Assembly (NCBI GenBank): GCA_028276365.1 | Contig: JAPYWL010000072.1 | Location: 1-5,365 of the forward strand | Source: Deltaproteobacteria bacterium | GTDB taxonomy: Bacteria; DRYD01 | Reading direction: 5' to 3' | Length of the DNA: 5,365 bases | Shown here: in pieces, positions 1 to 5,365 of the stretch | Layout of the letters: every line of letters starts with the position of its first letter | Numbering within the stretch: the stretch's first letter is position 1 | The notes under the pieces: generated by a model | Databases searched by the model: none | What the model saw: only the letters and a program-made list of their open reading frames with translations | What the model was told of the DNA's origin: nothing | Position numbers and translations under genes: made by a program

Positions 1-573
1 AAATTAAAGAAAACTGAAATCGGAGAAATTCCCCAAAATTGGGAAGTGGTGAGGCTGGGGGAGGTAGCTAAAATTAAAACAGGAAAAAGCAATGTAGAAG
101 ATGCTGCAGATGAAGGTAAATACCTATTTTTCGATCGATCAGGTGAAGTTAAAAAAAGCAATAAGTATTTATTCGATAAAGAAGCTGTCATTGTACCAGG
201 AGAAGGAAAAGAATTTTTACCAAAATATTATTGTGGAAAATTCGATCTTCATCAAAGAGCATACGCCATATTTGATTTTTCAAAACAATTAAATGGTAAT
301 TATTTGTTTTATACTATTCATTACTTCAATAAAATTTTGTGCAAATTAGCGGTTGGAACTACAGTAAAATCTTTAAGGCTTCCTATGTTTCAAAACTTTT
401 TAATCCCCCTTCCCTCTCTTCCCGAACAGGAAGAGATTGCAAAGATTTTGCAAATTATTGACCAAAAAATTGAGATTGAGAAAAAGAAAAAAGAGCTTTA
501 TGAAGAGCTTTTTAAAACAATGCTTCATAAAATTATGAGTCAAGAAATTGATATTAATTTATTAGATTATTAG
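1..573 (+). CDS. hsdS: Type I restriction-modification specificity subunit HsdS, 5'-truncated
   Basis: The frame is open from base 1, so the gene starts outside the window; the GTG at 46 is internal and not a start. The 190 visible residues hold one target-recognition domain (TRD) and its following helices. The TRD begins with the family signature TEIGEIPQNWEVVRLGEV (visible codons 5-22). It ends with LPSLPEQEEIAKIL (LPEQ at codons 140-143), followed by a Lys/Glu-rich coiled-coil helix (DQKIEIEKKKKELYEELFK). Such helices normally set the distance between the two TRDs and contact HsdM. The preceding KLKK makes this most likely the second TRD of a two-TRD HsdS, but a single-TRD protein missing only its first residues cannot be excluded. 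HsdS gives sequence specificity to the M2S methyltransferase and R2M2S nuclease complexes. The recognition sequence cannot be read from the protein. hsdM is not in the window and is inferred to lie upstream. The TAG stop abuts a GC-rich hairpin. Confidence 0.93.
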   Translation, partial: KLKKTEIGEIPQNWEVVRLGEVAKIKTGKSNVEDAADEGKYLFFDRSGEVKKSNKYLFDKEAVIVPGEGKEFLPKYYCGKFDLHQRAYAIFDFSKQLNGNYLFYTIHYFNKILCKLAVGTTVKSLRLPMFQNFLIPLPSLPEQEEIAKILQIIDQKIEIEKKKKELYEELFKTMLHKIMSQEIDINLLDY

Positions 574-628
574 CGGGTTGGCGAGTTGGCGGGTTAAAAA
601 ATAATGAACTCGCTAAACTCGTTAACTC
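573..628 (+). repeat. GC-rich octamer-repeat hairpin after hsdS
   Basis: The 5' arm (573-595) is about three tandem octamers of the form GCGRGTTG, 16 of 23 bases G/C in an otherwise very AT-rich window. The 3' arm (607-628) is built from octamers of the form AACTCGYT. In RNA, 575-595 pairs with 607-628: 21 pairs (16 Watson-Crick, 5 G-U), one bulged A at 615 and an 11-nt loop (596-606). No U-tract follows, so it is not a canonical intrinsic terminator. It could stabilise or process the mRNA, or be a relic of insertion of the downstream gene. The 5' arm can also pair with the array at 1027-1049. Confidence 0.8.
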
Positions 629-630
629 AG

Positions 631-662
631 AATAAAATAATAATAAATAAAAATAAATAAAA
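631..662 (+). other. A/T-only leader upstream of the four-helix bundle gene
   Basis: These 32 bases contain no G or C and are made of reiterated AATAAATAA-like units, reaching up to the ATG at 663. There is no Shine-Dalgarno sequence. An unstructured A-rich leader of this kind can support SD-independent initiation. In-frame TAA at 654-656 rules out any start further upstream. Whether a promoter lies here cannot be decided, since almost any hexamer in it resembles a -10 box. Confidence 0.5.
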
Positions 663-1070
663 ATGAAAATAACAAAATTTGAAGATTTGAAAATTTGGCA
701 GATAGCTTTGAGGATAACAAAGGAAATTTATAATATTACAAGTAAGAAAGAATTTTCTAAGGATTTTTCGTTAAGGGATCAAATAAGAAGAGCGATTATT
801 TCAGTTAGTTCTAATATTGTGGAAGGTTTTGAGAAAAATAACAATAATGAGTTTATTAGATTTTTAAAGATTGCTAAGGGTTCTATCGGAGAAGTAAGAA
901 ATCAACTATATATTGCATTAGCAGTAAACTATATAAACCAAGAAGAATTTGAAAAGTTAAATAATAAATTAATCGAATTAGCAAACCAAGTCGGCAAATT
1001 TATAAGTTATTTAGAAACAAATAGAAAACTCGTTAACTCGTCAACTCGTAATAAACTAATAAAAAAATGA
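663..1070 (+). CDS. Four-helix bundle protein, 23S rRNA intervening-sequence (S23/IVP, TIGR02436-like) family
   Basis: A 135-aa protein with the family hallmarks: FEDLKIWQIALRITKEIY at residues 6-23, then LRDQIRRAIISVSSNIVEGF (37-56), then EFIRFLKIAKGSIGEVRNQL, and a last helix ending in FISYLE. These form a four-helix bundle. Relatives are encoded inside 23S rRNA intervening sequences of some bacteria, and Avd proteins of diversity-generating retroelements share the fold; the biochemical role of most members, probably nucleic-acid binding, is unknown. There is no catalytic motif. The tail KLVNSSTRN (residues 122-130) is translated from the three AACTCGTN octamers at 1027-1050, so the C-terminus looks added by a repeat. 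It starts at ATG 663, the first start after in-frame TAA 654-656, without a Shine-Dalgarno. It sits between hsdS and hsdR, and its TGA overlaps the hsdR ATG. It is not a known subunit of type I enzymes, so I infer a passenger or mobile cassette. Confidence 0.88.
   Translation: MKITKFEDLKIWQIALRITKEIYNITSKKEFSKDFSLRDQIRRAIISVSSNIVEGFEKNNNNEFIRFLKIAKGSIGEVRNQLYIALAVNYINQEEFEKLNNKLIELANQVGKFISYLETNRKLVNSSTRNKLIKK
1027..1050 (+). repeat. Three tandem AACTCGTN octamers inside the 3' end of the four-helix gene
   Basis: The units are AACTCGTT (1027-1034), AACTCGTC (1035-1042) and AACTCGTA (1043-1050). The 14 bases at 1026-1039 are identical to 615-628, giving a direct repeat 411 bp apart that brackets nearly the whole four-helix gene. 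The array is also the reverse complement, allowing G-U pairs, of the arm at 573-595. It ends 16 nt before the hsdR start. It is translated as LVNSSTR in the four-helix frame. Confidence 0.85.
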
Positions 1071-4000
1071 TGCAATTAGAAAAAAAATTAGTTGAAGACT
1101 GGATAATAGAGGAATTAAAAAAAAGAGGATGGAATTATATTCAATTCAAAGACTTAAAAATATTAGATTCTAATAATCCTTTGCTTACTCAAGATTTAAA
1201 AAGAAAGATTTTAGAGATTAATAAAGATATTGAACTTATTGAAGATGATTTAAATGAAGTAATTAATGAACTTAGTCAAGCTCCAACCGATCAAAATGGA
1301 CATAAAAAAATTTTAAGATATTTAAAGTATGGAGTACCTATTAAAACCCAAAAACAAAAAATTATAAAATATATTCAACTCTTTGATTATAAAAATTTAG
1401 ATAATAATGATTTTGTTATAACTAATCAATTTAAGTTTTCAGGTAAAGAAAATATTAGATTAGATATTCTTTTAATTGTAAATGGAATTCCTTTAGTAAA
1501 TATTGAATGTAAAAATCCTTATACGGACAAAGTTAATTATTTGGATGCGTATAAACAAATAAAAAGATACGAAAAAATAGCACCAGAACTTTATAAATAC
1601 ATTCAAATAGGAATAGGATTTGCTGAAGTGGTTAAATACTTCCCAATTGTTCCTTGGCTTGAAGATGTAAAGCAAGAAATTTGGAGATGGGAAGGATATA
1701 AGGATGAAGAAGCAATATTTGAAACGTTAAAACCTGAGACATTGCTTGATGTTATAAGAAATTTCATTTTTATTAGAGAATTCCGTGGAGAAATAACAAA
1801 AGTAGTAGCAAGATATATGCAATATAGGGCTGCAAATAAAATTTATCAAAGAGTAATTAATAATTTAGAAGGGAAAACACATAAAAATAAAGGATTAATT
1901 TGGCATTGGCAGGGCTCTGGCAAAACATTAACAATGATTTTTACAGCTCATAAGCTTTATTTTGAACCTACCAAACCTCAAACCCTTGGAAAACCCACAA
2001 TATTTTTTATTGTTGATAGAAGAGATTTAGAAAAACAATTTAATGAAGAATTAAGTAGCTTGGATTTAAACTTTAGCTTTGAAAGGATAGAAAATATAAA
2101 TGCTTTAAAAGAGATTTTTAGTTATGATGATTACCGAGGAAAAAGAGGAGTGTTTTTAACTTTAATTCATAAATTTAATTTAGATCAAGAATTTTTATTA
2201 AGTGAGCTTGAGGAAAATGGGAAAATAAAGGAAAGGAAAGATATTATTTGCTTTTTAGATGAAGTTCATAGAAATCAATATGGAAAGTTAGCTCTGAAAA
2301 TGAAAAGTGCTTTACAGAGTGCTTTTTTCTTTGGTTTTACAGGTACCCCTATTTCATATGCCGACAAAGACACTTATAAACAGTTTGGATATATTAGCGA
2401 TGAAGATAAAGAATTGTATTTAGATAAGTATTTTATAGATGAAGCAGAAAAAGATGGTTTTATAGTACCTATAATTTATGAATTAAGGAAAGAGAAAATC
2501 AAATTGAAAGATGAAGATATAGAATGGTATTTGGATCAAGTTGATCTTGAAGATATTAGTGATGAATTTGAATTAACAAAAATTAAATATGAAGTAAGTA
2601 AAAGACTTAATGAAATTAGACTATTTTTAGAAAATCCGAATGAAATTTCAGAGATTGTAAAAGATTTAGCAGAGCATTTTAAGGAAAATTTTGCTGGAAA
2701 GTTTAAAGGTTTAATCGTTACTGGAAGTAGAAAAGCTTGCATAAAATATAAAGAATTTTTAGATAATTATTTACCCTCAGAATATACTGAAGTAGTTATG
2801 ACTTTTAATCAAAACGATGAAAAAGAAATACAAGAGTACAAAAATCAATTAATTCAAAGGTTTAAAATTAATGATACTACTGAAATCATTTCCCAAATAA
2901 TAGAGAAATTCAGAAAGGACGAATATCCAAGACTTTTAATCGTTACTGATATGCTAATTACAGGATTTGATGAACCAAAATTAGGAGTTCTATATTTACA
3001 TAAACTTTTAAAAAATCATAGATTACTTCAGACAATTGCAAGAGTTAATAGACCTTATTTTGAAAAAGTAGCTGGTTTAATAGTTGATTATATTGGGATT
3101 TTTAAGTTTATTGAGAAAGCTTTTAAATTTTATTTAGAAAAAGATGAAAAAGCTATAAATATTAAAGAAAAGATTAGAAATAGAATAGAAGTATTTGAGG
3201 AATTTTTAAGGAGATTAGAAGAAGTTAAATCAATTTTTGATGGACTAGTTGGTTATTTTACAAAAGATACACTTGAAAAAGCTTTAGAATTGATACTAAA
3301 AAGGGAAGAAATTGAAAATAAATTTATTGTAATTTACAAAGAACTTCGAAAATGGTATGAAATATTAGTATCTGATGAAAGAATGATTAAGTATTTAACT
3401 GATTATAAATGGCTTACAGCACTTTATGAAAGATATAAGAAAATAAAGTTAAAAACATATGATGAAGAAAAAATAGAGAAATTATTTAATAAAACAATTA
3501 AAATAATTCATGAGTTAATTGAAGTAGAAAAAATTATTCCAAAAATTAAGCCAACTGTTATTGATTTAAATTATATTCGATATTTAATTAATTCAGATTT
3601 AACTGAAAAAGAAAAAACAATAGCAACTCTTTATGCTTTAAAACATATTTGTGTTATTAATTCAAAAAATCCTATATATAAAAGTATCGCTAAAAGAGTA
3701 AAAGAATTAATACAAAGATGGCAAAATGATGAGATAGATTATAACAATTTGGGGATTGAAGTAAATAATATTTTAGATGAAATTGAGAAAAAAGAAAATG
3801 AAAAAAAACAAACAAAATTAAATAATATAGAATTTGGTATTAAGGTAATATTAGAAAGTTTTATAAAAATTCCAACCCAGGAATTACAAAATATATCCAA
3901 GGAGATATATAAGAACATAGAGCCATTAATTTTTACAGGATGGAATAAAAATCCAGCAATTTCAAGAGAGATTTCACTAAAGATAAGAGAATATTTATCA

Positions 4001-4090
4001 AAAATAAAAAGTAAATATAATTTAAATTACGAAAAATTTAAGGATTTACATAAGGAAATCTTTGAATTTGTTCATACTCAAGAAATTTAA
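1067..4090 (+). CDS. hsdR: Type I restriction enzyme endonuclease/translocase subunit HsdR
   Basis: A 1007-aa protein, the normal HsdR length. In the R2M2S complex it pumps DNA with ATP and cuts it away from the recognition site. The N-terminal nuclease domain has a PD-(D/E)xK site: D133, E147-C-K149 and the QxxxY motif Q164-Y168. The SF2 helicase motifs are intact: Walker A GSGKT (283-287), motif II DEVH (398-401, then RNQ), motif III TGTP (425-428), motif V TDMLITGFDEP (627-637) and motif VI QTIARVNRP (655-663). From about residue 690 it is a Lys/Glu-rich helical domain, the region that in this family docks on HsdM. No frameshift or missing key residue is seen, so it is probably active. The start is ATG 1067, overlapping the upstream TGA by 4 bp (ATGA); a second ATG at 1070 would give a 1-bp overlap. 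There is no Shine-Dalgarno, so translational coupling to the four-helix gene is likely. Confidence 0.96.
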   Translation: MMQLEKKLVEDWIIEELKKRGWNYIQFKDLKILDSNNPLLTQDLKRKILEINKDIELIEDDLNEVINELSQAPTDQNGHKKILRYLKYGVPIKTQKQKIIKYIQLFDYKNLDNNDFVITNQFKFSGKENIRLDILLIVNGIPLVNIECKNPYTDKVNYLDAYKQIKRYEKIAPELYKYIQIGIGFAEVVKYFPIVPWLEDVKQEIWRWEGYKDEEAIFETLKPETLLDVIRNFIFIREFRGEITKVVARYMQYRAANKIYQRVINNLEGKTHKNKGLIWHWQGSGKTLTMIFTAHKLYFEPTKPQTLGKPTIFFIVDRRDLEKQFNEELSSLDLNFSFERIENINALKEIFSYDDYRGKRGVFLTLIHKFNLDQEFLLSELEENGKIKERKDIICFLDEVHRNQYGKLALKMKSALQSAFFFGFTGTPISYADKDTYKQFGYISDEDKELYLDKYFIDEAEKDGFIVPIIYELRKEKIKLKDEDIEWYLDQVDLEDISDEFELTKIKYEVSKRLNEIRLFLENPNEISEIVKDLAEHFKENFAGKFKGLIVTGSRKACIKYKEFLDNYLPSEYTEVVMTFNQNDEKEIQEYKNQLIQRFKINDTTEIISQIIEKFRKDEYPRLLIVTDMLITGFDEPKLGVLYLHKLLKNHRLLQTIARVNRPYFEKVAGLIVDYIGIFKFIEKAFKFYLEKDEKAINIKEKIRNRIEVFEEFLRRLEEVKSIFDGLVGYFTKDTLEKALELILKREEIENKFIVIYKELRKWYEILVSDERMIKYLTDYKWLTALYERYKKIKLKTYDEEKIEKLFNKTIKIIHELIEVEKIIPKIKPTVIDLNYIRYLINSDLTEKEKTIATLYALKHICVINSKNPIYKSIAKRVKELIQRWQNDEIDYNNLGIEVNNILDEIEKKENEKKQTKLNNIEFGIKVILESFIKIPTQELQNISKEIYKNIEPLIFTGWNKNPAISREISLKIREYLSKIKSKYNLNYEKFKDLHKEIFEFVHTQEI

Positions 4091-4104: not shown

Positions 4105-4650
4105 ATGAAAATAGAAGAAAATAGAGTTTTTATTCTTAAAAGAAAAATTAAAAACTTAAGATTAGAAGTAGATCCCGAAGGTATTAAAATAATTGTTCCT
4201 GAGGATTTTGAAATTAATAAAAATCAAATATTAACTAAATATAAAATATGGATAGAAAACAAAATTAAGCAGTTAGAAGAAATAAAAGAAATTAAGAATA
4301 ATCTACAAATTTATAAACAAAATAATTTATATAGCTTAATAGAAAATTTAGTTAGTAAAGTAAGTGAATTTTTAAGAATTAAACCAAAAAAAATTTTGTT
4401 CAGAAAAATGAAGAAAAGGTGGGGAAGTTGTAATTATAAAGAAAAAATTTTGATTTTTAATAAAAATTTGGAATATCTCCCCAAAGAATTAATAGAGCAC
4501 GTGGTTATTCACGAAATGTGTCATTTAGTTATTAAAGACCATAGTAAGCAATTTTGGTTACTTGTTAGTAAATTAGACCCCAACTTTAAAAAAAATATAA
4601 AACTGTTAAGTGGTTATCTATTGATTTTAGAATCACAAAATAATCTTTAA
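4105..4650 (+). CDS. YgjP-type zinc metallopeptidase (COG1451/DUF45, SprT-like fold)
   Basis: A 181-aa soluble protein with the zinc-protease signature HEMCH (H136, E137, H140) and the third ligand H146 in the family-typical DHSKQFW. It is preceded by KRWGSC (W106-C109), a hallmark of YgjP/DUF45 proteins. The N-terminus (NRVFILKRKIKNLRLEVDPEGIKIIVP) is the usual beta-rich start and is complete. No signal peptide or membrane segment is seen, so it is cytoplasmic. It starts 14 bp after the hsdR stop in the same direction, so it is probably in the same operon. Genes of this family are repeatedly found beside type I restriction loci, but the substrate is not established. Turnover of HsdR, or action on DNA-bound proteins by analogy with SprT/Spartan, would be inference. 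There is no Shine-Dalgarno before ATG 4105. Confidence 0.88.
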   Translation: MKIEENRVFILKRKIKNLRLEVDPEGIKIIVPEDFEINKNQILTKYKIWIENKIKQLEEIKEIKNNLQIYKQNNLYSLIENLVSKVSEFLRIKPKKILFRKMKKRWGSCNYKEKILIFNKNLEYLPKELIEHVVIHEMCHLVIKDHSKQFWLLVSKLDPNFKKNIKLLSGYLLILESQNNL

Positions 4651-4707: not shown

Positions 4708-5365
4708 ATGCTTCCATTAAAAGATATTAATCCTACAAGATCTTTTCCCGTTATTACTTTTATTCTTATTTTAATTAATATTATTGTATTTTTTATAGAA
4801 GTTTTTTATAATAAGGAGTTAATTGTTCAGAATTATGGGATAAGTTTTAATAAACTATTTTATTTAAAAGATTACAAAACTTTAATAACCCATATGTTTT
4901 TACATGCTAATTTTACCCATTTATTTTTTAATATGTTTTATTTATGGATCTTTGGGAATAATATTGAGGATGAGTTAGGTGCTTTTAAGTTTTTGTTATT
5001 TTACATACTTGGTGGGATAGTAGCAGCAATATTACAGCTTTTATTTATTGGTGCTGTTAATATTAATTTAATAGGAGCAAGTGGAGCAGTTAGTGCTATA
5101 TTGGGGGCTTATTTAAAACTATATCCTACTGCTCCTATCTTAACTTTATACTTTTTCTTTATATTCATAGGATTAACGTATGTTCCTGCTTTTGTTTTCA
5201 TCATATTTTGGTTTATTTTTAACTTATTAAATTTATTTTTTAATTTTTATTCTAATGTAGCATATTTAGCCCACATAGCTGGTTTTATTTTTGGATTCCT
5301 ATTTATTGATATTTTTAAAAACCTATTTTCTTTTAGAACTAAGAAACGTAGAAAATACTTTTATT
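4708..5365 (+). CDS. Rhomboid family intramembrane serine protease, 3' end open
   Basis: 219 residues are visible and no stop is reached before the window ends. The catalytic dyad is present: S125 in GASGA and H189 in AHIAG. The oxyanion-side HxxxN motif is H71 and N75 in HANFTHLFFNM. Six hydrophobic segments (about 14-32, 59-83, 92-115, 121-139, 144-180, 184-205) give the six-helix rhomboid core in the cytoplasmic membrane. The N-terminus MLPLKDINPTRSFPVIT is typical of a bacterial rhomboid subfamily. In-frame TAA at 4702-4704, two codons before ATG 4708, fixes the start; there is no Shine-Dalgarno. The visible end (RTKKRRKYFY) is a basic cytosolic tail, so little of the protein is probably missing unless an extra domain follows. 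It cleaves within or near transmembrane segments of unknown substrates. It lies 57 bp after the metallopeptidase and is most likely unrelated to the restriction system. Confidence 0.92.
   Translation, partial: MLPLKDINPTRSFPVITFILILINIIVFFIEVFYNKELIVQNYGISFNKLFYLKDYKTLITHMFLHANFTHLFFNMFYLWIFGNNIEDELGAFKFLLFYILGGIVAAILQLLFIGAVNINLIGASGAVSAILGAYLKLYPTAPILTLYFFFIFIGLTYVPAFVFIIFWFIFNLLNLFFNFYSNVAYLAHIAGFIFGFLFIDIFKNLFSFRTKKRRKYFY

Follow-up and report, generated by a model that had tools for sequence, protein, structure and literature searches.

An S23/IVP gene at an hsdS-hsdR junction is bounded by paired tandem-octamer arms that are probably the ends of a small mobile element

The window analysed here, a stretch of DNA of 5,365 nucleotides, is one complete contig of a 1.59 Mb genome that is available in 124 contigs. 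All of its genes lie on the + strand, in the order hsdS, S23/IVP, hsdR, YgjP-like metallopeptidase and rhomboid protease. The upstream host gene, hsdS (1-573), has lost its 5' end at the contig edge and encodes a type I specificity subunit (PF01420, E 1.4e-25), while the downstream host gene is hsdR (1067-4090; TIGR00348, E 6.4e-188, as well as PF04313 and PF18766). Directly 3' of hsdR follow the genes for the metallopeptidase (4105-4650) and the rhomboid protease (4708-5364), both on the same strand. Between hsdS and hsdR lies a gene (663-1070) for a four-helix-bundle protein of 135 amino acids from the S23 or 23S rRNA IVP family (PF05635, E 5.6e-35; TIGR02436, E 1.2e-32), which also matches the PDB entry 2gsc (E 4.9e-13) and, weakly, the NCBIfam family DivGenRetAVD (0.00016, with a score of 21.9, far under the cut-off of 80). 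The TGA stop codon of the S23 gene (1068-1070) overlaps the ATG of hsdR (1067), and because of this ATGA overlap at 1067-1070 translational coupling from S23 to hsdR is possible.

The S23 gene is enclosed by a stem, as an earlier note on this DNA had stated: nucleotides 573-595 pair with 1027-1049 at all 23 positions (i+j=1622), with 17 Watson-Crick pairs, six G-U pairs and 0 mismatches, and the stem opens at 573, where the third base of the hsdS stop codon (TAG, 571-573) serves as the first base of the left arm, and closes 17 nt before the hsdR ATG. The left arm (A, 573-595, + strand) is a three-copy tandem octamer array, CGGGTTGG/CGAGTTGG/CGGGTT, whose reverse complement fits the array pattern AACYCGYY with no mismatch. 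The right arm (C, 1027-1049, + strand), which pairs with A over 23 nt, is a three-copy tandem octamer array as well, AACTCGTT/AACTCGTC/AACTCG, and the S23 reading frame continues through it, the C-terminal tail of the protein being arm-encoded. An extra array (B, 606-628, + strand, GAACTCGCTAAACTCGTTAACTC) is inverted with respect to A, with which it forms a local hairpin (573-628), and repeats the right arm in direct orientation ahead of the S23 gene, matching 1026-1039 at 14 of 14 positions.

The sequence from 560 to 1075 folds with -97.3 kcal/mol, compared with a mean of -74.35 (sd 4.73) for dinucleotide-shuffled controls, of which 0 of 100 were as low (z -4.85). The antisense strand of the same segment reaches only -62.2, a sense-over-antisense excess that agrees with the inference of the earlier note but is peculiar to the window locus. 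On the other hand, the longest ungapped helix of Watson-Crick and G-U pairs in 20 Markov controls measured 16-21 nt and once 27, and the length of the stem alone is thus only moderately unusual for such an AT-rich window; what is distinctive is its G+C content and its position.

Similar stems were sought around other S23 genes by comparing the 250 nt upstream with the 250 nt downstream of the gene, with G-U and A-C scored equally and a score of 36 or more taken as a strong stem. The sample was drawn from species genomes and is enriched for Bacteroidota and Patescibacteria; most loci were chosen by family alone and a few came from an octamer scan. In a first set, strong stems were found at 57/94 S23 genes and at 0/115 non-S23 ORFs in these loci, and in the enlarged set at 119 of 232 S23/IVP (PF05635) genes (51%), compared with 4/464 (0.9%) GC-matched mismatched flanks. 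The stem-bounded design is therefore general, extending to about half of the sample, and similar cassettes occur in protein-coding operons of many bacterial groups. The other genes, about half, fall under the stem threshold and may represent decayed cassettes, domesticated copies or different biology.

The arms share a manner of construction while their unit varies between loci (e.g. ATTGAAC, AGAAGAC, TCGGATG, GAGTTGAC). The repeat period is 7 in 85/119 and 8 in 26/119 of the cassettes, together 111/119, and the self-match of the arms at lag 7 is 0.58, against about 0.25 in the outer flanks. An extra partner array like B was found in 13/119 cassettes and an ATGA-type overlap at the S23 stop in 17/119. 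All eight named plasmid loci carry arms (seven cyanobacterial, L418 and L420-L425, and one from Riemerella), so that the arm-S23-arm pattern does not stem from errors in draft assemblies of metagenomes. No S23 gene was found in the phage collection, and none of the S23 relatives sought by peptide pattern in viral contigs was confirmed. An unusual arrangement was seen in one genome (G014), which carries about 19 PF05635 fragments, mostly in close, oppositely oriented pairs such as C7:104028-104225 (-) and 104402-104554 (+).

A scan of species genomes for the octamer pattern yielded at least 119 array stretches. Among the matches listed, two, in an Omnitrophota and a Bacteroidaceae genome, contain an S23 gene within the same arms and in the same polarity. 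PF05635 genes were present in 15/15 chosen array-bearing genomes and in 15/40 of those from a search among relatives, a difference that is only a hint, since the two sets differ in taxonomy. Octamer hairpins that lack S23 are nonetheless common, with a partner within 100 nt at 25 of the 119 array loci among the matches listed, and the arms are therefore not exclusive to S23. This abundance speaks for the view that S23 is flanked by chance and that its arms are dispersed hairpins of an ordinary kind, similar to terminators or REP sequences. However, chance flanking would have to account for the contrast between S23 genes and both kinds of control given above, and the arms are co-inherited with the S23 clade: arm similarity follows S23 relatedness (Mantel r 0.163, p 0.0005; outer flanks 0.087), and the 4-mer cosine of the arms is 0.68 for pairs of S23 proteins at least 65% identical and 0.12 for pairs below 25%. 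Moreover, the genome of the window has a single S23 gene and a single array pair, that of the 573-595/1027-1049 cassette, and no other such array. We consider a chance association very improbable.

Some of the S23-less hairpins may be deletion products and others may be unrelated. Hairpins or solo arrays of octamers or heptamers of this kind were seen at L293 2474-2573, at L099 1526-1587 and, at sdhA-sdhB junctions, in L235, L247 and L248; the one at L293 shares heptamers with the S23 cassettes of the same genome and resembles a MITE beside its parent. Inspection by eye of the loops of long inverted octamer pairs revealed no recurring second gene as other cargo. Long pure tandem arrays of octamers, with up to tens of copies of units such as GAGTTGGC, were also observed (L048 4769-5422, from Pseudoalteromonas; L127 6002-6071; L155 1-102).

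The earlier note had likened the layout of the locus to the S23-bearing rRNA intervening sequences (IVSs), and the likeness, an S23 ORF together with a terminal stem, holds for the window and is found again at roughly every second S23 gene in the sample. The IVS of Coxiella burnetii comprises an S23 ORF and a 28-bp terminal stem with tandem heptamers, GACAGAT, in the 5' arm, and is cut by RNase III at the first heptamer (PMC4990558). The Coxiella 23S rRNA IVS and the window cassette have in common a sense-strand S23/IVP ORF, a size of about 430-480 nt and a long terminal stem, and the heptamers in the Coxiella 5' arm correspond to the tandem arrays of the window, which are octamers. Both the Coxiella IVS and the S23 cassettes are sporadic in distribution, which suggests horizontal transfer. 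However, the host of the IVS is an rRNA gene, whereas that of the window cassette is a protein-coding operon, hsdS-hsdR; and an rRNA IVS is excised by RNase III without ligation, such cutting being putative for the window cassette. The window shows two features of an IVS, namely S23/IVP in sense orientation and terminal inverted repeats that form a long stem (23 bp), and lies outside any rRNA gene, Rfam having returned sub-threshold matches only and no rRNA in the window. It is thus by definition no rRNA IVS, and the likeness is anatomical. Rfam detected tRNAs and no rRNA in 20 S23 loci, which precluded a direct comparison with an rRNA-located S23 gene. To judge from its anatomy, the window cassette appears to correspond, within a protein-coding operon, to the IVSs with S23 that reside in 23S rRNA genes.

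Tandem heptamers are also present in other structured RNAs. Cyanobacterial STRR heptamers occur in the P6b stem of the tRNA-Leu intron. The title of Vioque 1997, cited in PMC2858038, places STRR heptanucleotide repeats in the cyanobacterial RNase P RNA gene. STRRs resemble the S23 arms in being tandem heptamers in genes of structured RNAs; however, no link of STRRs to S23 genes was found in the literature searched, whereas the heptamers of S23 cassettes, as in the cyanobacterial plasmids L418 and L420-L425, are element ends. IVP-encoding insertions have been described in 16S and 23S rRNA of CPR bacteria (PMC11270868); they belong to the same protein family as the S23 protein of the window, but that study concerns rRNA genes only, and a text search of it did not find the word "repeat". 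Among the open-licence papers searched, none was seen to describe S23 cassettes that lie outside rRNA and have arms of tandem repeats. As regards other classes of elements, the Avd protein of diversity-generating retroelements is a homologous four-helix-bundle protein (PMC10053308), but the window has neither a reverse transcriptase gene nor the template and variable repeats of such elements. The ORF list and a Pfam profile search revealed no transposase, recombinase or reverse transcriptase gene in the cassette, and target-site duplications were no more frequent among the tested cassettes than among shuffled pairs; the cassette thus lacks the hallmarks of an insertion sequence or MITE. What it does possess are the inverted tandem 7/8-mer arms bounding an S23 gene that characterize the arm-S23-arm group.

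Comparison of copies indicates that arm, S23 gene and arm form a mobile unit to which the arms belong. Two loci of one genome, L293 and L359, are 91% identical over 1445-1871, with arms at 1447-1870, and their flanks are unrelated; in two other same-genome pairs, L200/L201 and L371/L375, similarity is likewise confined to the arms and the gene. At the sdhA-sdhB junction of 30 Bacteroidales genomes, the gap is 39 nt or less in 22 and an S23 cassette is present in three, the remainder being four genomes whose spacers (54-121 nt) lack S23 and in some cases hold repeat or hairpin sequence, and one unreadable case. The three cassettes have three different arm sequences, and their S23 proteins are 51-56% identical, whereas two of the three hosts share 91% identity in SdhB (54 residues compared), so that these look like separate insertions. 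Two further loci, L420 (Pseudanabaena galeata pPg_01) and L425 (Anabaena sp. 90 pANA02), have S23 genes with nearby heptamer arms at cas6-cas4 junctions, and the arms suggest that, at these two loci at any rate, the S23 genes between cas6 and cas4 are insertions. 23S_rRNA_IVP genes are listed among the functions associated with cas loci in an earlier study (PMC3936711); these published "cas-associated" genes may be cassette insertions of the arm-S23-arm kind. For the window itself, the nearest S23 protein in the sample is that of L169 (68% amino acid identity), where AACTCG arms occur as well. No exact empty site was found for the hsdS-hsdR junction, where just distant HsdR relatives (26-28%) have hsdS directly abutting hsdR. 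Neither an S23 gene nor an array pair was found in same-genus and same-family genomes, and the single copy in the genome of the window together with its absence from these relatives points to recent acquisition of the cassette. By reference to the same-genome copies elsewhere and to the empty sdhA-sdhB sites, we place the boundaries of the putative mobile unit at 573-1049 (+ strand), running from the left arm through the hairpin and the S23 gene to the right arm.

A different role for the stem was proposed in the earlier note, according to which it could set the level of HsdR. In this scenario the cassette is an RNA regulatory device of the host, in which cutting by RNase III, or switching between A:B and A:C, adjusts HsdR relative to hsdS. 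The left arm does have two mutually exclusive pairings, the A:B duplex with -29.8 and the A:C duplex with -35.7 kcal/mol, the overlap of the S23 stop with the hsdR start would allow coupling, and an RNase III gene is encoded in the genome. All six non-Watson-Crick pairs of the window stem are indeed G-U on the sense strand, but the inference drawn from them, that the transcript has been selected for pairing, is not supported: the 118 other stems contain 238 G-U and 211 A-C pairs (p=0.22) and show no difference between sense and antisense duplex energies (p=0.35), and on these grounds we rejected the view that a G-U bias between strands is a general mark of RNA function. Nor is maintained covariation between the arms of related cassettes supported. 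In nine comparisons, of which three share loci and one pair could not be aligned in the arms, and with repeat alignment being error-prone, 52 changed pairs comprised 3 compensated, 10 G-U, 33 broken and 6 other double changes, and compensatory change was rejected because it is too rare (3/52). The lack of a G-U excess and the mostly breaking arm changes argue against a host regulatory role, control of HsdR included. The same cassette is moreover found in unrelated operons (sdhA-sdhB, cas6-cas4, plasmid genes), and the sdhA-sdhB sites are usually empty. Nothing that we found indicates that the stem sets the HsdR level; regulation of HsdR by the cassette is doubtful, and we judge the regulatory device as a whole to be unlikely. 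It seems that pairing counts at the origin or movement of the cassette and is not maintained by selection on the resident transcript.

We therefore return to the insertion of an element, the reading we regard as probable with good confidence: the stem consists of the paired ends of a small mobile S23/IVP element with inverted tandem octamer arms, inserted in the sense direction at the hsdS-hsdR junction. The placement of cassettes in general is consistent with such a history. With neighbour genes called as the longest open frames, so that single cases may be wrong, 87 cassettes are co-directional with both neighbours and 6 run against both (p 1.7e-19); the median distance is 0 nt from the upstream stop codon to the left arm and 7.5 nt from the right arm to the following start codon. 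Evidently, host transcription in the sense direction matters for the cassettes, which can mean that S23 depends on the promoter of the host, that copies in antisense orientation are harmful to it, or that RNA takes part in the mobility cycle. The last option leads to a version of the element reading with a specific route, in which the excised S23 RNA hairpin would be copied back by a reverse transcriptase, with S23 acting in an Avd-like manner. The strong sense orientation in transcribed operons, the precise stop-to-start placement and the S23-Avd homology favour this route; however, the cassette has no reverse transcriptase gene, the sense strand lacks a G-U bias, and selection explains the orientation bias too. 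We would give such RNA-mediated mobility a low, though appreciable, likelihood.

In the mobile-element reading that we prefer, the S23 protein and the paired arms would be the parts needed for the spread of the element, presumably with help from the host or from an enzyme acting in trans, given that the cassette has no recombinase gene. A sense-strand site at a gene junction would be tolerated, as host transcription would express S23 and harm would be least there. By analogy with the Coxiella IVS it is plausible that RNase III cuts the stem in the mRNA, which would separate the hsdS and hsdR messages as a by-product; the arms would decay after insertion. It is tempting to go further and to consider S23 cassettes as a widespread class of mobile elements that are autonomous and lack a recombinase gene, their mobility being carried by an Avd-related four-helix-bundle protein and a fast-changing 7/8-mer stem, possibly via excised RNA, and the rRNA IVSs being the rRNA-resident minority of the class; we offer this broader proposal tentatively, as a possibility with the balance still against it.

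For three decades the S23/IVP proteins have posed a puzzle, having been seen in rRNA intervening sequences and being abundant as orphan "four helix bundle" genes. To our knowledge, they have no agreed function. The interpretation presented here would tie the orphan S23 genes to the rRNA elements by one common design, the inverted tandem 7/8-mer arms, and would give each S23 copy testable ends. It would explain the presence of S23 genes in restriction, CRISPR and metabolic operons, and it also calls for caution, in that S23 genes found in such operons should not be taken as functional parts of them. The question of whether IVSs are mobile, and how, would thereby become directly testable.
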